This document shows, piece by piece, positions 11,847 through 37,837 of a DNA stretch of 64,000 nucleotides (within the stretch, counting starts at the first letter, position 1; each line of letters begins with the position of its first letter). Origin of the DNA: Planctomycetaceae bacterium (GTDB lineage Bacteria; Planctomycetota; Phycisphaerae; Sedimentisphaerales; UBA12454); the NCBI GenBank assembly GCA_021371795.1, contig JAJFVK010000005.1, positions 1 to 64,000 on the forward strand, read 5' to 3'. The notes below the pieces were generated by a model, which searched no databases, was not told the DNA's origin, and saw nothing but the letters and a program-made list of their open reading frames with translations. Made by a program: the position numbers and the translations under genes.

Positions 11847-12893
11847 ATGAATCGAGCGATTTACAGAATTATCGATGCGAATTACAACCGTGCACGCGAA
11901 GGGCTGCGCGTTGCGGAGGAATTCTGCCGGTTTGCGCTCGATAATCAGCAGCTTTCATCACGCTGCAAGGAAATCCGACATAAATTAAGTGCCTCAATCT
12001 CGAAAATTGATGCACAAAGACTTATTTCGTCTCGTGATACGGAAAATGACGTCGGCTGCGATGTAAAAATCGCCGAGCCGATGAAACGCCAAAGCCTTGA
12101 AGATTGTGTAACGGCCGGCCTTGCCAGAACTGTCGAGGCGATAAGGGCAATCACGGAATCTGTCGCTATAATTGACAGTAAACTGGCACAGGAATTTGAA
12201 AAAATTCGTTACGAATGTTACACAATCGAAAAAGACATCTCTCTTTTCGGATTCCCGGCCGTAAAATTCAAAAATACAAGACTCTATTGTATTATTACTA
12301 TGCAGGCAGGTATTGATGTATTAAAAATCGCAAAACAATGTGCGGCGGGCGGTGCGGATTGTTTGCAGTTAAGAGCGAAAGATATATCTGATTGCGAACT
12401 TTTGCCGCTTGCACGTGAATTTGTTAAAATCGGTAAAGACAATAATGTTGTCAGCATTATTAACGATAGGGCAGATATAGCAATCGCCGCGGATGCTGAC
12501 GGTGTGCATCTTGGTCAAAATGATTTGCCGACCAATGAGATACGTAAATTGCAGTTAAAGCCGTTGATTATTGGCGTAAGTACTCATTCAATGAGCGAAC
12601 TTGCCTCCGCTGTCGAACAACGGCCGCATTATGTCGGCGTTGGTTCTGTTTTTACAACGAATACTAAACAACAAGTTGAAATTTGCGGGTTAGATTATGT
12701 GAAGCAGGCGACAGATTTTCTAAAAACCAAATCAATCGAAGCTGTCGCAATCGGCGGAATCACTCTGGAAAATGTTGATAAAGTTATACAGGCAGGAGCA
12801 AAACGAATCGCAGTTTCATCGTGCGTTTGTCTGGCGGAAAATCCTGCAAATATTTGCAAAAAATTCAAAGAAAAGCTTGACAGAAATATTTGA
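11847..12893 (+). CDS. thiE: ThiD2-ThiE fusion, thiamine-phosphate synthase
   Basis: Bifunctional thiamine biosynthesis protein of 348 aa. Residues 1-125 form the ThiD2 domain (N-terminus YRIIDANYNRAREGLRVAEEF), proposed to act as an alternative hydroxymethylpyrimidine phosphate kinase. Residues about 145-348 are ThiE: QLRAKD (diphosphate end of HMP-PP), INDRADIA near residue 205, DGVHLGQNDLP, GVSTHS, the GVGSVF turn and AIGGIT near residue 307. ThiE joins HMP-PP and the thiazole phosphate to thiamine phosphate. No TPP riboswitch is visible in the 117 bases upstream. Confidence 0.92.
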   Translation: MNRAIYRIIDANYNRAREGLRVAEEFCRFALDNQQLSSRCKEIRHKLSASISKIDAQRLISSRDTENDVGCDVKIAEPMKRQSLEDCVTAGLARTVEAIRAITESVAIIDSKLAQEFEKIRYECYTIEKDISLFGFPAVKFKNTRLYCIITMQAGIDVLKIAKQCAAGGADCLQLRAKDISDCELLPLAREFVKIGKDNNVVSIINDRADIAIAADADGVHLGQNDLPTNEIRKLQLKPLIIGVSTHSMSELASAVEQRPHYVGVGSVFTTNTKQQVEICGLDYVKQATDFLKTKSIEAVAIGGITLENVDKVIQAGAKRIAVSSCVCLAENPANICKKFKEKLDRNI

Positions 12894-13382: not shown

Positions 13383-15833
13383 ATGCAGGAAACTGGTAAA
13401 AAACGATTAAGTCAAGCATTGCTGAAAAAGAATGGATTTGTCATTGTGGCCGAACTTGTCGGCGGGCCGAACTTCAATTACGCTCCAATCGAGAATTTCC
13501 TCACAGCATTCAAAAGCAGCGGCGGCAAAGATATTCCGCAGGGATTCAACTTTGTCGGTATTACCAGTCCGCAGAGTCCCGGCGGTGTCGCCAATATCGA
13601 ACCCGCTGATGTACATCGTTATCTCGAGAGCAAAAATCTGCTCGGCGAACTTGATTTCATTCCGCATATCAGCAGCAAAGATTCCAACGCTGACGCCATC
13701 ACAAGTCTGCTTGCCGCTCACAAGGCGGCTGGCGTCGAAAGCGTGCTTGCGCTCACAGGCGATAAACCCGTCAGCTCACGCGGTGTATTCGAACTTGAAT
13801 CGACGAGTATGCTTGCGAAAATCACACGCATAAATAATGAAGCGTATTTATCGGCGAAAGTGGAAAGTCTTGCCGCGACGAAGCAATTTTTCGCCGGTGC
13901 GGCTGTATCGCCTTTCAAATATACCGAAGCGTCCCAAATGCAGCAGTATTTCAAGATGGAGAAAAAAGTCGCCTGCGGAGCGAAATTTCTGATTACGCAG
14001 GTCGGCTGGGACTGGAAAAAGTCTGTCGAACTTGTGCGCTATCTGAAAGAGAACAATATAGATGTGCCGGTGCTCGGCAATGTTTATCTGTTGAGCACAA
14101 TTACGCCCGCACCGCGGCTTATGCACGATATAAAACTGCCGGGCTGCTTTGTCAGCGATGAACTGCTGGCGAAAGTTTATTCTGAATCCGTCGATGAACA
14201 TATCGAACGCGCCGCCCAGCAGATTGCGATGTATAAGGCAATCGGCGCAGCCGGTGTTGACCTCGGCGGTGTGCACGATTATGAAATGTTCATAAAGATT
14301 CTTAAACGTGCAGCCGAGATAGGCGGTAACTGGGAACAATTTAAGACAAATCTCTGCTGGCCGCCGATAAAAGCTTTTTATCTCTACGACGAAACGGGCA
14401 ACAGGGCTGCATTGTCGGAGTATCCGAAAACATTCGGCCATCGTTTCTTCGATTTTATGCATTGGGCGATACTCGACCCGAAACATAAAGGTTTTCACGT
14501 ATTTAAAAAGATAATGAAATTTTTCGGAGCCGACAAAGGCAAAGGGTTTGTATATAAGAGCTTCTTTATGGTTGAAAAGCCGATGAAGTACTGTCTGTTC
14601 GACTGCGAAGAGTGCGGCGATTGTTATCTGCCGGAGAATTTCGGGCTTTGCACAATCGGTTGTTGTGAAAAAGGTATGGACAACGCACCCTGCGGCGATT
14701 CGACTGTCGAAGGCAAATGCGGAAATAATCTTGAACGTATTTGTATTGGCGATAGAATCTACAAAGCGGCAGGCGCGGAAAAGGGCGGCTATGAAAAATT
14801 AAGAAAGACCATTAACAGGCCGAGAATCCCCGCTCTTGAACATTCCGCGTCGATACCGAACTATCTTTTTGGCAGGGACCATACAATGAAAAACGCGATT
14901 ATAAACATCGGCGAATCAGTTCACGCTTCGATTCCGAAAACAGGGCAGATAATGAAGCAGCTTCTGGCTCTTGGCGATGACTGTTTCAGCAAACCAAGTC
15001 CTGAATTTGAATATGTTAAGGCGTTGATTGAATCGCAGACTGCCGATGGTGCGGATTACATCGCGGTCAATATCGACCAGTTCGGCGAAACAGACCCAAC
15101 TCTTGCGGTTAAGCTGATGAAGGAATATGTCAAACTCGTTCGCAAATTCGGCAGAGGCGTGCCGGTTTGCGTTGACAGCAGCGATGACGATGTTCTTATC
15201 GCAGGCCTGAAAGAATGGTACGATACGGATGAAAAAGTTCTGCCTCCGCTGATTAACTCAATAAAGATTTATACGATTGATAATATGATGCCGCCGAAAA
15301 AGCATTTCGATTACAAGTTCATCGGCCTGCTCATCAGCGAAGCAAAAGCGACAACAGATAATGTTGACGATTTGTTTAATCTGGCTAAAACAATTTACGA
15401 TGCTGCGATGAAGCACGGCTTCAAGGCGGACGAAATATTTTTCGATTCGACGGTGTTCCCGCTGGCAATCGATATGCCGATGCAGCCGGGCGTGCCGGGT
15501 TATACTTACAGAACTTTCAACACAATTAAGAAAATCAAAACTGACCCGCAGTTGAAGAATTGTCATTTCTCGCTGGGGGTAACAAATAGCGTTCGCGATT
15601 TACCCGCCAGAAAAATCGGCGTAACCCGCGCGTATGTCGAAGTCGCGATGCGTTATGGCCTTGACGCCGGTATCGTCAATGCTTCGCACCATCTTGGGAA
15701 TGTTCCGGCGGACCCGGATTTGGTTAAACTTGTCGAGGCTTACGCAGACCTTGACGGCTCGAGCGAAAAACTTAATACCGCGATGATGCTGATGGGTGAG
15801 TTCTGTCAGAAAAACAGAAAACCAACGGCGTAG
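13383..15833 (+). CDS. MetF-type reductase / zinc domain / pterin-dependent methyltransferase fusion
   Basis: An 816-aa protein that joins three C1-pathway modules. Residues 1-310: MetF-like methylenetetrahydrofolate reductase barrel (VAELVGGPNFNYAPIE, SVLALTGDKP, GAKFLITQVGWD). Residues about 390-470: Cys-rich module with CEECGDCYLPEN, CTIGCCEK and PCGDSTVEGKCG, like the MTHFR C-terminal zinc/MetV-type domain. Residues about 500-816: DHPS/pterin-binding methyltransferase barrel (INIGESVHASIP, ADGADYIAVNIDQFGE, VCVDSSDDDVL, SLGVTNSVRDLP), like AcsE/MtrH or the MetH folate domain. The product could reduce methylene-THF and pass the methyl group to a corrinoid protein. It stands alone, with no corrinoid protein or CODH gene in view. 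Confidence 0.82.
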   Translation: MQETGKKRLSQALLKKNGFVIVAELVGGPNFNYAPIENFLTAFKSSGGKDIPQGFNFVGITSPQSPGGVANIEPADVHRYLESKNLLGELDFIPHISSKDSNADAITSLLAAHKAAGVESVLALTGDKPVSSRGVFELESTSMLAKITRINNEAYLSAKVESLAATKQFFAGAAVSPFKYTEASQMQQYFKMEKKVACGAKFLITQVGWDWKKSVELVRYLKENNIDVPVLGNVYLLSTITPAPRLMHDIKLPGCFVSDELLAKVYSESVDEHIERAAQQIAMYKAIGAAGVDLGGVHDYEMFIKILKRAAEIGGNWEQFKTNLCWPPIKAFYLYDETGNRAALSEYPKTFGHRFFDFMHWAILDPKHKGFHVFKKIMKFFGADKGKGFVYKSFFMVEKPMKYCLFDCEECGDCYLPENFGLCTIGCCEKGMDNAPCGDSTVEGKCGNNLERICIGDRIYKAAGAEKGGYEKLRKTINRPRIPALEHSASIPNYLFGRDHTMKNAIINIGESVHASIPKTGQIMKQLLALGDDCFSKPSPEFEYVKALIESQTADGADYIAVNIDQFGETDPTLAVKLMKEYVKLVRKFGRGVPVCVDSSDDDVLIAGLKEWYDTDEKVLPPLINSIKIYTIDNMMPPKKHFDYKFIGLLISEAKATTDNVDDLFNLAKTIYDAAMKHGFKADEIFFDSTVFPLAIDMPMQPGVPGYTYRTFNTIKKIKTDPQLKNCHFSLGVTNSVRDLPARKIGVTRAYVEVAMRYGLDAGIVNASHHLGNVPADPDLVKLVEAYADLDGSSEKLNTAMMLMGEFCQKNRKPTA

Positions 15834-17360: not shown

Positions 17361-17840
17361 TCAGAAGTCTTTTTTTTGTAAATGTTGTAGCATCCACTGA
17401 ACTTCGTCTTTTTTCTGCTGCTCGGCGAGAAGTTTTTCGAAATATTTCTTTTCGTACCATTTAACTTTGCCGTTGTACCAGAGAACAATATAGCCTGATT
17501 TTACGAATCCGCCGTAAATCTTTTCAGAATACGCGAGTATTGTGCTGTTGGGATCAGAACCGTATTCTATCCACATCGCTCTGTATTGAAGCGGACCGAC
17601 TCTGACAAGTCCAGCTCTATCGATAAAATCATCTACATATATTTGATTGGGCAGGGAGCCATATTTCTGGCGGTATGAGAATATTTCCTTGCTTAGCACA
17701 TTCATCGCTCGTATGGATTCAGCGCGATTTATACTGTTTTTGATGTTCGCAAAACCCACAATCATAACTATCGTGAAAAACGAAACGGTTATGATGTTGG
17801 CGACGAGTTTTTTCTGTTGAGTGTTCACGAAGACATACAA
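17361..17840 (-). CDS. Single-pass membrane protein, pseudopilin-like, unknown
   Basis: A 159-aa protein with one N-terminal hydrophobic helix (ANIITVSFFTIVMIVGFAN) and a soluble C-terminal domain with aromatic residues (YRQKYGSLPN, GGFVKSGYIVLWYNGKVKWYEKK). The shape resembles a type II pseudopilin, but the GFTLxE cleavage motif is missing. The first in-frame start is a TTG at 17840; a GTG lies four codons later (17828); neither has a clear ribosome-binding site. It is 13 bases downstream of the RNase HI-PurN gene and is likely in the same transcript. Confidence 0.6.
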   Translation of the reverse strand: MYVFVNTQQKKLVANIITVSFFTIVMIVGFANIKNSINRAESIRAMNVLSKEIFSYRQKYGSLPNQIYVDDFIDRAGLVRVGPLQYRAMWIEYGSDPNSTILAYSEKIYGGFVKSGYIVLWYNGKVKWYEKKYFEKLLAEQQKKDEVQWMLQHLQKKDF

Positions 17841-17853
17841 TAAAGCAAAATAG

Positions 17854-18915
17854 CTATTTTGTCAATACTCTGTTGCCGGCGACGAACAGTCTGCCTGTTG
17901 CGAAAAGTTGCACAGCTTCGGGATAAGCGATGCATTCCTGTTCAAAAACCCTGGCCGCCAAAGTGTCTGGTGTGTCGTCATCTTTTACAGGGCAGGTTCG
18001 CTGGACAATAATCGGGCCTTTGTCGTATTCGTTTGTGCAGAAATGTACCGTACAGCCGCTGACTTTGCAGCCGGCGATGATTACCGCTTCGTGTACGTGA
18101 TGCCCCCACATGCCCTGTCCGCCAAACGCGGGCAAAAGTGCAGGGTGAATATTCATAACCATATTTTCGAGTTCCGGCGGAATCTTCCACAGGCACAGCC
18201 AGCCGGCCTGTATAACAAGATTGACCTTTGCTTCGATTAGAACTTTTCCGATTTGTTTGCTGAATCCGTCGATGTCGGGATAATCTTTTTTGCGGATGAT
18301 TTCCAGCGGCAGCCCGGCTTTTTTTGCCTTTTCAACGCCGACGGTGTCCGATCGGGACGATATTACCGCTGCGATTTCAGCGTTTAACTGCCTTTGCTTT
18401 ATCAGTTCGTTAAAATTGATCAGCGTTCTTCCGCTTCCGCTTATCAGTATACCGAGTCGAAGATGTTTCGATGTTGTATCTATTTGTGTTTTTGATTTTT
18501 CTTCGTAATCTTTTTTGTTGTCGAGAGCTTTGTTGACAAGTTTGTCGGCATGTGTGTTTTTTTCTCTGCGGACGTGATTAATCTGCCAGCTTTTGAATTT
18601 TGTCAGCCAATCGAAACATTCCGTGTACAATTCCCGCAGTCCCTCGTTTTTGACTTTATATTCGCCGTTGATTTGTTTGACCATCAGTTCGCTGTCGCTG
18701 AAAACTTTTACGGCTTTAGCGCCGAGCGAAAATGCCTCTTCGAGTCCGTTCAGCAGGCCGGTATATTCAGCGATATTATTAGTTGCGTGTGAAATGAACA
18801 TTGCTTTTGCGCAGAGCTGATGATGGTTTTCGTCGAATAAAACGAACGCACCGGCTGCAGGGCCGGGATTGCCTCTGCTTCCGCCGTCGGTAAAGATGGT
18901 TACGGTATCAACCAA
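17854..18915 (-). CDS. RNase HI - GAR transformylase (PurN) fusion
   Basis: A 353-aa protein with two complete enzyme domains. Residues 1-135: RNase HI of the short type, with catalytic residues visible as FTDGGSRGNPGPAA (Asp near 9), NNIAEYTGLL (Glu near 50), VFSDSELMVKQ (Asp near 74) and THADKLVN (Asp near 125). Residues about 150-353: phosphoribosylglycinamide formyltransferase, with ILISGSGRTLINF, MNIHPALLPAFGGQGMWGHHVHEA (catalytic His) and CTNEYDKGPIIVQ (catalytic Asp). PurN moves a formyl group from 10-formyl-THF to GAR in purine synthesis. No stop, frameshift or internal start separates the halves; the linker is Lys/Glu-rich. The upstream zinc-ribbon gene ends 4 bases before the ATG. 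Confidence 0.9.
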   Translation of the reverse strand: MVDTVTIFTDGGSRGNPGPAAGAFVLFDENHHQLCAKAMFISHATNNIAEYTGLLNGLEEAFSLGAKAVKVFSDSELMVKQINGEYKVKNEGLRELYTECFDWLTKFKSWQINHVRREKNTHADKLVNKALDNKKDYEEKSKTQIDTTSKHLRLGILISGSGRTLINFNELIKQRQLNAEIAAVISSRSDTVGVEKAKKAGLPLEIIRKKDYPDIDGFSKQIGKVLIEAKVNLVIQAGWLCLWKIPPELENMVMNIHPALLPAFGGQGMWGHHVHEAVIIAGCKVSGCTVHFCTNEYDKGPIIVQRTCPVKDDDTPDTLAARVFEQECIAYPEAVQLFATGRLFVAGNRVLTK

Positions 18916-18919
18916 ACCC

Positions 18920-19654
18920 TTAGTTCTCCGTCTCCTTGAGGAACAAAATACGCGTGCAGTTCGGGCAGCGAAGGATTTCGTCTTTGCTCATCAGGGTATT
19001 AGCGGTTTCGGTCGTAAGGTTCATAAAGCATCCGCCGCAGGTATAAACGCCGCTTCTGTGATCCTGAATTTCGACTTCTGCGATCGCTTCGCCGTCATAA
19101 GTTTCCGCGACTCTTTTGAAAGTCTCGAGCGCTTCGGCGGGTACATCTTTTGCCGCCTGCTGCCATTGCTGTTCGATTTGGACGATTTCCGCTTCGAATT
19201 TTTTCGCTTGTTCTTCGGTTTGTTTGCGGATTTCTGCCAGTTCGTTCTTGGCGACTTCGATTTGCTGTTTGATGACTTCGCATTGCGTCTGGTCGGCATC
19301 GATATTTTTCATCAGTTCCAAAGTCTGGCTTTCGACTTTACTGCTGTCGGCTTTTGTAGTGTTGAGTTCTGTCAGAATTGCCGCGTATTCCTTGTTGCTT
19401 TTCGCGATGTTCAGCGCTGCGCGGTATTTGGCGAGGGTTTCATCGACACTCTTGAGCTCGAGTTCCATACGGTCGGCCTGGATTTTTGTAAGCTGTATCT
19501 CGTCCAGCTTAGAAGCCAGGTTGTTTTGCAATGTACGGAGTTGATTTTCCTTTAAGATGACGTTACGACGGCTTCTGTTAAGCTTGGCCTTGGCGGCTCT
19601 TAAACTATTTTCTACACTTTGAAGTTTTACCAGAGCATTGAGCACTGTTCCCAT
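18920..19654 (-). CDS. CT398-like coiled-coil zinc-ribbon protein
   Basis: A 244-aa soluble protein. Residues 1-175 form a long coiled coil and the C-terminus is a four-cysteine zinc ribbon (CGGCFMNLT, then CPNCTRILF). This is the C4-type zinc-ribbon / CT398 family, found in most planctomycetes and chlamydiae; a role in secretion or transcription has been suggested but is not established. It is the first gene of an operon with the RNase HI-PurN fusion (4-base gap). Confidence 0.85.
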   Translation of the reverse strand: MGTVLNALVKLQSVENSLRAAKAKLNRSRRNVILKENQLRTLQNNLASKLDEIQLTKIQADRMELELKSVDETLAKYRAALNIAKSNKEYAAILTELNTTKADSSKVESQTLELMKNIDADQTQCEVIKQQIEVAKNELAEIRKQTEEQAKKFEAEIVQIEQQWQQAAKDVPAEALETFKRVAETYDGEAIAEVEIQDHRSGVYTCGGCFMNLTTETANTLMSKDEILRCPNCTRILFLKETEN

Positions 19655-34015: not shown

Positions 34016-37000
34016 ATGGCAAAAACTTCAGAGACAGGACAAATAAATATTAAACAAGCTCTTAACAAGGCTTTTAGAAAATTAAGACCAACCAGAGCAG
34101 AAATTGATACGCTAAAATCCAATCTCACAAAGCTTCTTAACGGAGTAACTCCAAAAGAATCAGAAGAATATCACAAGAACCTACTTAAAGATTTCCTGAA
34201 AGATACAGCTTTTTCAAATTGTTCTATCAACACAAAAGAAAGAATTGATCTTGTCATACATAACGGCAAAGAACCAACGTCAGATGTCGGAATTATCATA
34301 GAGGTAAAAGCTCCCAGCAATAAAAATGAAATGCCAACAACAGATAATCTCAATGCAAAAGCCACACAGGAGTTGTTGTTTTATTTTTTAAGGGAACGAA
34401 TTACACATAAAAATCACGACATCAAACATCTCATCATTACCAACCTGTATGAATGGTTTATATTCGATGCAAAAAAAATTGACAAATTAGCAGACGATAC
34501 GAAGCTTAAAAAACACTTTAAGGATTTTGATGAAGGCCGCTTGACTTTTGTTAAAACGGAATCGTTCTACAAGGAAATTATCAGCCCTGTATTAAAAGAA
34601 ATGAATGGCAAAATCGAATTTGTTGCATTTGATATTCGAGAGTACAAAAAACATATTAAAGAGCAAACAGAAAGCGGAGATAAAAAATTAATCGAACTCC
34701 AAAAGATTTTATCATCAACACATTTACTCACAGAACGATTTATAAATGACAGCAATACTCTAAATGAGAAATTTTATAGTGAACTGCTGCATATAATCGG
34801 TCTGGAGGAATATCCGGAAGGCGGCAAAAAATTAATTAAACGACAATCAGAAAGAAATCGCGATGAAGACTCACTCATCGAAGCAGCTATTACGCAAATT
34901 TCTTCTTTAGATAAACTTACACAAATTAAAAATCCCGAACAGTATGGGAAAAATACAGAAGACAGGCTTTTTAACATAGCTTTAGAACTTGCAATTACAT
35001 GGATAAACCGAATACTATTCCTGAAACTGTTGGAATCGCAAATTGTCAGCTATCATCAAAATAACAAAGAGTATCTTTTTCTTAATAAAGAAAAAGTAAA
35101 AGGTTATGATGATTTGAATGATTTGTTTTTTCAGGTGTTAGCTGTTGAAGTTAAAAACAGGCGAAAAGTAATTCACGAGAAATTCCCGAAAGTACCATAT
35201 TTGAACAGTTCGCTGTTTGAGCCAACAGAGTTAGAACTTCAGACAGTTGTAATCAGCAATCTTCCGGATAATACAAATATTACTTTGTATAAAAAATCCG
35301 TTGTAAACGGCGGCGTCCAAAAACTTACAACTCTGGAGTACCTTTTTAAGTTTTTAGACGCATACGATTTTTCATCCGAAGGACGGGAAGAGGTAGTAGA
35401 GGAAAATAAGGCTCTTATTACCGCTTCTGTACTGGGTTTGATATTCGAAAAAATAAACGGTTACAAGGACGGTTCGTTTTTTACGCCGGGCTTTATCACA
35501 ATGTATATGTGCAGGGAAGTGATACGCAGAGCTGTTGTGCAGAAATTTAAGGAACAGACCGATTTTAAGAGCGATGAGTTTGGCGATTTAATAAATTATA
35601 CAAGTCGTGCCTATAAGCAAACGGACATCGACAAATATAATGGGATTATCAATTCGTTGAAAATTTGCGACCCTGCGGTCGGCAGCGGGCATTTTCTTGT
35701 TTCTGCTCTTAATGAGATTATCGCAGTGAAATCAGATTTAGGAATCCTTTGCGACAAAAATGGCAAACCAATTCGGGATTATCTGGTTGACGTTGAAAAC
35801 GATGAATTGTTAATACTTGATCGTCATAATGAATTTTTCAAATATGACCCTGAAAACAGGGAAACTCAAACGATTCAGAAAACTCTTTTTCAGGAAAAAC
35901 AGACTATCATTGAAAATTGCCTTTTTGGTGTAGATATCAATCCTAATTCAGTGAAAATCTGCCGGCTGCGTTTATGGATTGAGCTATTGAAAAACGCATA
36001 TTATAAAGAGGACGGTGAACTTGAAACTCTTCCCAATATTGACATAAATATCAAATGCGGAAACTCTTTAGTAAGTTTTCTGCCAATCAATAGTGATATA
36101 AGAACAATTTTTGACGGGGATGTAAATTTACAACGGTATAAAGACAGCGTGGTACTTTATAAACATGCGGAAGATAAAAGCACAAGAGATAAAATGCGGG
36201 CGTTTATCAACAATACTAAAGAGAAATTTCGTGCACGCGCCCTTTATGCAAGCGCTAACACGAAAATGCTTAAAAAATTAGAAAAAGAATATAGCATATT
36301 AGTCGCTCCTCAATTTTTCAGTGAAACGGAAGATGAAAAAAAAGAAAAGGCCAAGAAGCTGGCTTTAAAAAAAGTACAGATTGACAAGTTAAAGGGGGAA
36401 ATAGAAAAAAACATAATCGAAAAAGAAAATGAAAACGCTTTAGAATGGAGATATGAATTTCCCGAACTTTTAGACGAAAAGACCTCAAATTTTACAGGTT
36501 TTGATATTATCATAGGAAATCCGCCATACATAAAGGAAAATGATGACAAGACTATTTTTGACGGACTAAGAGATTTAGAAGTTTATAAGGGCAAAATGGA
36601 TATTTGGTATTTGTTCTGCGGACTTGGTCTGGACTTGCTAAAAGATAATGCCTATATTTGTTTCATAGCAACAAACAATTGGACTACCAACTATGGCGCT
36701 AAAAAATTAAGAAATAAAATTGTTCGAGACAGCAAAATTATACAGTTAATAGATTTTAACGATTTTATGGTATTTGACGAGGCTTCCATTCAGACGATGA
36801 TATTGCTGCTTAAAAAAGATAAAACCGCAGACAAGTACAATTTTGATTATAGAAAAATCATTGAAACAAGCGATAACTTTAAACCAACGGATATTTTAAA
36901 CAAAAACAAAAATAATCCAAATATTATGTTAGTCTCGCCATTGTTCAATCGGGATGACATGATAGAACAAACTTTTACTTTTTCTGAAAAGAAAGATGAC

Positions 37001-37837
37001 AACATATTAAAAAAAATAAAAGCCAATTCCAATTATATATTAAGCAAAAAAGAACTCATAAATGGGATACATTCGCATCATGATAAAGTAACCAAAAAAA
37101 TGCTGAATAATTTAGGCAAAGGTACTAAAATTGGACAGGGAATCTTTGCACTAAAAATTGAAGAGTTAAAATCTTTAGGACTTATAAAAAAAGAACAAGA
37201 AGATTTGATTCGCCCTTACTATACCAGCAAACAACTGCATAAGTATTGGGCGAATCGAGAAAACGAGGAATGGATAATATATACCACTTCAGAGTTCAAA
37301 AATATTAAGAACATAAAGCCTTATCCCAACATACAGAACCATTTAGACAAATTTATGAGTGTGATAACTTCTGACAATAAACCTTATGGTCTGCATCGCG
37401 CAAGGGATGAAGAGTTTTTCAATGGTGAAAAAATAATAGCCGTGCGAAAAAGCCCCCATGAACCCGTTTTTACTTATACGGATTTTCCCTGTTATGTATC
37501 GGCAGCATTTTATTCTATTAAAACAGATAAAGTGAACATGAAATATTTAACAGCACTATTGAATAGCAAATTGATAAAATTCTGGTTAGACCATAAAGGC
37601 AAGAAACAAGGAAATAATTTCCAGGTGGATGCTGAACCATTGACCCAGATACCTTTAATGAAAATTTCAGGAAACGAACAGGAGCCGTTTATAGCATTGG
37701 TAGATGAGATATTGGCGATGAAAAATAAAGACCCTAAAGCGAATACGAGTGGGCTTGAGAAGCAAATTGATGAGATGGTCTATAAATTGTACGGCTTGAC
37801 GGACGACGAGATAAAAATAGTTAAAAGTGAAAAGTAA
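34016..37837 (+). CDS. Type IIG restriction-modification enzyme (Eco57I-like)
   Basis: A single 1273-aa protein that cuts and methylates. Residues 60-110: PD-(D/E)xK nuclease, with RIDLVIHNG followed by IIIEVKAP (ExK). Central adenine-N6 methyltransferase: motif I DPAVGSGHFLVSA near residue 555, FGVDINPNSVKICRLRLWIELL near 645 and motif IV IIGNPPYIKEN near 835. The C-terminal third (about 950-1250) is the target-recognition region, with LHRARDEEFFNGEKIIAVRKSP and YLTALLNSKLIKFWLDHKGKKQG as in the Eco57I/TaqI specificity domains. Codon use is markedly AT-rich (many AAA, ATA, TTA) compared with neighbours, which suggests horizontal acquisition. GAGG lies about 10 bases before the ATG. Confidence 0.9.
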   Translation: MAKTSETGQINIKQALNKAFRKLRPTRAEIDTLKSNLTKLLNGVTPKESEEYHKNLLKDFLKDTAFSNCSINTKERIDLVIHNGKEPTSDVGIIIEVKAPSNKNEMPTTDNLNAKATQELLFYFLRERITHKNHDIKHLIITNLYEWFIFDAKKIDKLADDTKLKKHFKDFDEGRLTFVKTESFYKEIISPVLKEMNGKIEFVAFDIREYKKHIKEQTESGDKKLIELQKILSSTHLLTERFINDSNTLNEKFYSELLHIIGLEEYPEGGKKLIKRQSERNRDEDSLIEAAITQISSLDKLTQIKNPEQYGKNTEDRLFNIALELAITWINRILFLKLLESQIVSYHQNNKEYLFLNKEKVKGYDDLNDLFFQVLAVEVKNRRKVIHEKFPKVPYLNSSLFEPTELELQTVVISNLPDNTNITLYKKSVVNGGVQKLTTLEYLFKFLDAYDFSSEGREEVVEENKALITASVLGLIFEKINGYKDGSFFTPGFITMYMCREVIRRAVVQKFKEQTDFKSDEFGDLINYTSRAYKQTDIDKYNGIINSLKICDPAVGSGHFLVSALNEIIAVKSDLGILCDKNGKPIRDYLVDVENDELLILDRHNEFFKYDPENRETQTIQKTLFQEKQTIIENCLFGVDINPNSVKICRLRLWIELLKNAYYKEDGELETLPNIDINIKCGNSLVSFLPINSDIRTIFDGDVNLQRYKDSVVLYKHAEDKSTRDKMRAFINNTKEKFRARALYASANTKMLKKLEKEYSILVAPQFFSETEDEKKEKAKKLALKKVQIDKLKGEIEKNIIEKENENALEWRYEFPELLDEKTSNFTGFDIIIGNPPYIKENDDKTIFDGLRDLEVYKGKMDIWYLFCGLGLDLLKDNAYICFIATNNWTTNYGAKKLRNKIVRDSKIIQLIDFNDFMVFDEASIQTMILLLKKDKTADKYNFDYRKIIETSDNFKPTDILNKNKNNPNIMLVSPLFNRDDMIEQTFTFSEKKDDNILKKIKANSNYILSKKELINGIHSHHDKVTKKMLNNLGKGTKIGQGIFALKIEELKSLGLIKKEQEDLIRPYYTSKQLHKYWANRENEEWIIYTTSEFKNIKNIKPYPNIQNHLDKFMSVITSDNKPYGLHRARDEEFFNGEKIIAVRKSPHEPVFTYTDFPCYVSAAFYSIKTDKVNMKYLTALLNSKLIKFWLDHKGKKQGNNFQVDAEPLTQIPLMKISGNEQEPFIALVDEILAMKNKDPKANTSGLEKQIDEMVYKLYGLTDDEIKIVKSEK

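Follow-up and report, generated by a model that had tools for sequence, protein, structure and literature searches.

RNase HI fused to metabolic enzymes

In mycobacteria, an RNase HI is joined at its C-terminal end to CobC (Rv2228c/MSMEG_4305). The two domains of this protein act independently, and removal of CobC hardly affects growth and does not raise hybrid levels; the linker is highly variable, and fixation of the fusion was ascribed to drift by the authors of that work (PMC7466739). Besides this protein, M. smegmatis carries another RNase HI, and losing both RNases HI is lethal (PMC4429107). Other RNases HI close to the one described below are LC11-RNase H1 (3u3g/4h8k) and archaeal RNase HI (4e19, 2ehg), which, with 3hst, are the nearest solved RNases HI in both sequence and fold, although neither is fused to a metabolic enzyme.

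Here we describe a protein in which an RNase HI is followed by PurN (GAR formyltransferase), encoded in a Planctomycetaceae bacterium within a 64,000-nucleotide stretch of DNA, which we call the window. Like RNase HI-CobC, this protein has the same small N-terminal RNase HI type (43% identity to 3hst), a C-terminal metabolic enzyme behind a variable linker, purifying selection on both halves, and a distribution confined to one lineage (PMC7466739). It differs in its C-terminal partner, which is PurN rather than the CobC phosphatase, and in the phylum in which it occurs, and the window genome lacks the second RNase HI that M. smegmatis possesses (PMC4429107). The original prediction held that RNase HI and PurN activities have no known link; this stands for the pair itself but overlooked that a parallel fusion of RNase HI to a metabolic enzyme had already been described. 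No report of an RNase HI-PurN fusion was found in the open-access literature searched, and this domain fusion is apparently undescribed.

Two complete enzymes in a single reading frame

The fused gene and its immediate neighbors are arranged as follows.

17361..17840, minus strand: 159-amino-acid (aa) protein, family unassigned; next gene downstream of the fusion
17854..18915, minus strand: fused RNase HI-PurN gene, 353 aa; probable TTG start, stop at 17856-17854
17866..18465, minus strand: PurN (GAR formyltransferase) domain, residues ~151 to 350; catalytic N255, H257, and D298
18466..18510, minus strand: linker, residues ~136 to 150; highest column entropy, variable length, pLDDT of 66 for residues 141 to 150
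18511..18906, minus strand: RNase HI domain (RVT_3/RNase_H), residues ~4 to 135; catalytic D10, E50, D74, and D124
18920..19654, minus strand: cdsZ-like gene (CT398-like coiled coil plus C4 zinc ribbon), immediately upstream of the fusion

The frame is open throughout, without an internal stop, and the TTG at 18915 is probably its start codon, lying a few bases past the cdsZ stop and directly preceded by Shine-Dalgarno-like GGAG and AAGGG motifs. Pfam and NCBIfam matches and the catalytic residues of both domains bear out the original prediction of an uninterrupted frame with two complete enzymes. When loci were retrieved using the protein or its domains as queries, one frame matched both domains in 112/112, far above chance; some of these loci are one genome seen through two collections.

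The N-terminal half exceeded the cutoffs of Pfam RVT_3 (89.7 bits, residues 9 to 130) and RNase_H (41.4 bits). The four acidic positions anticipated from the window alone proved to be D10, E50, D74, and D124, the RNase HI catalytic D-E-D-D, and are unchanged in 81/81 fused sequences from independent assemblies. In Foldseek and profile searches this half matched 4e19, 3hst, and 3u3g, with LC11-RNase H1 and the RNase H domain of Rv2228c among its closest solved structures. It appears to be an ordinary RNase HI of small size, the type linked to cdsZ, with predicted activity on RNA-DNA hybrids.

The C-terminal half likewise appears to be an ordinary PurN, with predicted activity in GAR formylation. 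It matched Pfam Formyl_trans_N (121.1 bits, residues 153 to 335), and the whole domain scored above the equivalog cutoff of NCBIfam TIGR00639 (157.5 versus 150.1 bits); its catalytic N-H-D (N255, H257, and D298) is also invariant in the 81 fused sequences, and its nearest structures in the same searches are the GAR transformylases 3auf and 2ywr. In contrast to the PurN of other Planctomycetota sampled, which stands alone, this one lies behind an RNase H domain. Two other assignments were rejected. Identity as PurU (formyltetrahydrofolate deformylase) fails on score (73.4 bits versus a cutoff of 285.95) and on the N terminus, which is RNase H. Membership in NF005567 (bifunctional RNase H/acid phosphatase), the NCBIfam entry for mycobacterial RNase HI-CobC, fails because the RNase H part alone matches (134.3 bits over residues 5 to 145, cutoff of 326 bits), the C terminus being PurN and not a CobC-like phosphatase.

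A search for separate purN and rnhA genes, suggested at the outset, recovered neither a second PurN nor a second RNase HI in the window genome, which is 98% complete. PurT gave no match over the cutoff, PurH was found, and a second Formyl_trans_N match, on contig C10, is taken to be a putative methionyl-tRNA formyltransferase (Fmt). Since the genome lacks another RNase HI, another PurN, and PurT, both activities appear to come from the fused protein alone. Nor did a canonical RNase HII turn up in this genome, whose sole RNase HII match, a divergent protein of 329 aa (G000:C25, L004:688-1677, minus strand), fits Pfam RNase_HII best at the first motif only (42.2 bits, profile positions 1 to 28). 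Because M. smegmatis dies without both of its RNases HI (PMC4429107), the single RNase HI here may, by analogy, matter to the cell.

Selection on both halves and a loose linker

Purifying selection acts on both halves: dN/dS for the nearest pairs is ~0.10 to 0.17 in the RNase H half and ~0.05 to 0.09 in the PurN half and rises to 0.35 to 1.1 in the linker, the fastest-evolving part, these values being rough because dS exceeds 1 (saturated) and the linker has just 10 to 13 codons. Across the 81 fused sequences, column entropy reaches 2.91 bits at residues 141 to 150, compared with 0.2 to 1 near the active sites, and the distance from the last RNase H catalytic aspartate to the PurN start motif varies from 30 to 75 residues. 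An AlphaFold2 model of the fused protein has a mean pLDDT of 88 and a pTM of 0.60 and is weak in the linker, as would be expected of two firm domains lacking a fixed arrangement. Among the matches listed by Foldseek and profile searches, no solved chain matched both halves.

Distribution of the fusion

A match spanning the junction was found in 47 of 64 same-order genomes, with the window genome counted in. By family, the fusion occurs in 12 genomes of f1, in the only genome each of f2 and f5, in 2/5 genomes of f3, and in all genomes of f6 (14/14) and f7 (17/17), and it was found in none of the 13 genomes of f4. Two of the 47 (G007 and G012) have only partial matches, which nevertheless cross the junction. 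A third of the 47 (G052) joins the halves through a longer linker in a single 413-aa frame. One other same-order genome (G008) had no match. In a separate scan of named genomes, 80/80 kept loci were uninterrupted fusions; their records are titled as Planctomycetota, in several cases as Sedimentisphaerales or Anaerohalosphaeraceae, and we infer that the order carrying the fusion is Sedimentisphaerales. One fusion-bearing record (L090, CAMDDF010000117.1) is titled Candidatus Kuenenia stuttgartiensis, probably wrongly.

Outside the order, the best listed matches in the class sample (248 genomes) and the phylum sample (294 genomes) were to PurN only; a similar fusion there would be expected to top these match lists. 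Independent fusions were also sought among 20 class and phylum loci with unusually long PurN frames, and a profile search found an RNase H domain in none of them.

Gene neighborhood and origin

Wherever enough upstream DNA was available (77 of the 80 loci), a same-strand cdsZ lies upstream of the fusion, its end at most 120 bases from the start of the fused frame in 73 loci and at most 260 bases in the remaining 4. On the downstream side, 75 loci extend far enough to be compared, and in 45 of them a homologue of the 159-aa protein comes after the fusion. Relatives in f4, f16, and f18 have cdsZ followed by an RNase HI without PurN, which makes the cdsZ-rnhA pair look older than the fusion.

Other genes in the window include an 816-aa protein near purN (13383-15833) with MTHFR-like, DUF5981, and pterin-binding methyltransferase domains, a one-carbon (folate) enzyme. 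Homologues of it occur in only 7 related loci, so its linkage to purN is not conserved. The window also encodes a ThiD2 fused to thiamine monophosphate synthase (TMP-TENI) in a single 348-aa frame (11847-12893) and a 1,273-aa Eco57I-type restriction-modification protein (34016-37837) with DUF7149, DUF7814, and a TaqI-like specificity domain.

In three single-contig f3 genomes (G014, G019, and G023), a stand-alone purN directly follows and overlaps cdsZ, RVT_3 is absent, and a classical RNase HI (~150 bits) is encoded elsewhere. The halves are separable, because these relatives have no RNase H half between cdsZ and purN and have the classical enzyme at another site. That another RNase HI is encoded where this half is missing lends indirect support to its predicted cleavage of RNA in hybrids. 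Two other f3 genomes (G027 and G031) keep the fusion. Among the 59 genomes searched, 42 were fused, and only 3 of these (G042, G053, and G056) have a second RNase HI. The pattern, drawn from one or two events, is consistent with the RNase H half having been lost in genomes where its role passed to another RNase HI.

In 11 f4 genomes (L115:6085-6912, L117:4763-5572, and L144 to L152), the same RNase HI type, located behind cdsZ in the loci read (L115 and L117), carries a C-terminal domain of ~120 aa, and purN is a separate gene, unlike in the fusion. A Pfam search of this extension gave no match, and comparing its profile with solved structures showed it to be a divergent cupin (3rns, E value of 2.7e-9). 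A cdsZ-linked RNase HI in an f18 genome (G069, L132:1369-2232) has yet another C-terminal extension, of ~114 aa, unlike the f4 cupin.

In the RNase H tree, a single branch separates the fused sequences from the rest. The PurN tree has low resolution and places stand-alone f3 and f4 PurN among the fused sequences with weak support. A clade of fused sequences alone was rejected (p-AU = 0.034), whereas groupings of fused plus f3 (p-AU = 0.12) and of fused plus f3 and f4 (p-AU = 0.32) were not; these results fit one fusion followed by one or more losses, f4 either never having had the fusion or having lost it.

Independent or coupled domains

We consider it probable, at roughly 80%, that the fused protein is bifunctional yet modular, consisting of two autonomous enzymes that were fused early in Sedimentisphaerales by way of their operon position. 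The order of events would be that purN came to sit directly behind the cdsZ-rnhA pair and that the stop codon between rnhA and purN was then lost early in the order, after which both enzymes would be made 1:1 from one message. The RNase HI half would cleave the RNA strand of RNA-DNA hybrids, and the PurN half would serve purine synthesis by moving a formyl group from 10-formyltetrahydrofolate to GAR. Judging from mycobacterial RNase HI-CobC, the two enzymes would work independently, joined by a loose linker, the fusion having been fixed in one lineage through operon position. The suggestion of a chance fusion kept in one lineage comes close to this reading, with the lineage being most of one order.

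With most of the genomes being metagenome assembled, two separate genes could in principle have been joined by chimeric assembly or by a stop codon that was missed. We regard this as hardly conceivable, because the same junction recurs in dozens of independent assemblies; a missed stop would have to recur in every one of them, including single-contig genomes such as G033, and purifying selection acts in one frame on both sides of the junction. The presence of the fusion in 47 of 64 same-order genomes and in 80/80 named loci likewise disposes of the possibility, raised with the original prediction, that it appears only in this contig, and its contention that no frameshift is involved is upheld. 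The fusion is genuine and conserved. It is also quite improbable that the fusion is mostly nominal, with PurN freed by an internal start or by proteolysis in the linker. The linker is loose and fast evolving, a likely protease target, and 31/81 sequences have a methionine between residues 128 and 158, but a start codon with a Shine-Dalgarno-like 4-mer occurs in this region in just 6/81 loci, the linker of the window protein has no methionine, and no alternative start is conserved among the 81 loci.

A different reading is that the joined state was itself selected for, with the PurN half regulating or positioning the RNase H half, or the reverse, so that nucleotide supply is linked to R-loop or primer removal; the PurN half might sense purine or folate status and tune hybrid removal, or might place RNase H near nucleotide demand. 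That the halves have stayed joined through most of the order could mean that the joining itself is useful, and both halves retain intact catalytic residues in a genome that has no other copy of either enzyme. Nevertheless, we think such coupling, which the original prediction had offered as one possible meaning, unlikely. The linker is unconserved in sequence and length, and the AlphaFold2 model gives no confident placement of the domains relative to each other. Three relatives have PurN without the RNase H half at this position, and elsewhere this type of RNase H is attached to unrelated partners (cupin in f4 and CobC in Actinomycetales).

Implications

The RNase HI-PurN protein adds to RNase HI-CobC a second instance of an unrelated metabolic enzyme attached to the C terminus of an RNase HI, and the cupin, which occurs in a neighboring family, is a third partner. 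Since PurN, CobC, and cupin partners all exist, the C-terminal end of this small RNase HI seems to tolerate added domains. Relatives that differ naturally in having or lacking the RNase H half offer a ready comparison for testing whether the fusion has any function. If coupling were shown, the fusion would be a new site of control linking the supply of purines to genome maintenance. Annotation pipelines may name the fused protein by one half only, and an organism that carries it can then seem to be without RNase HI or without PurN.
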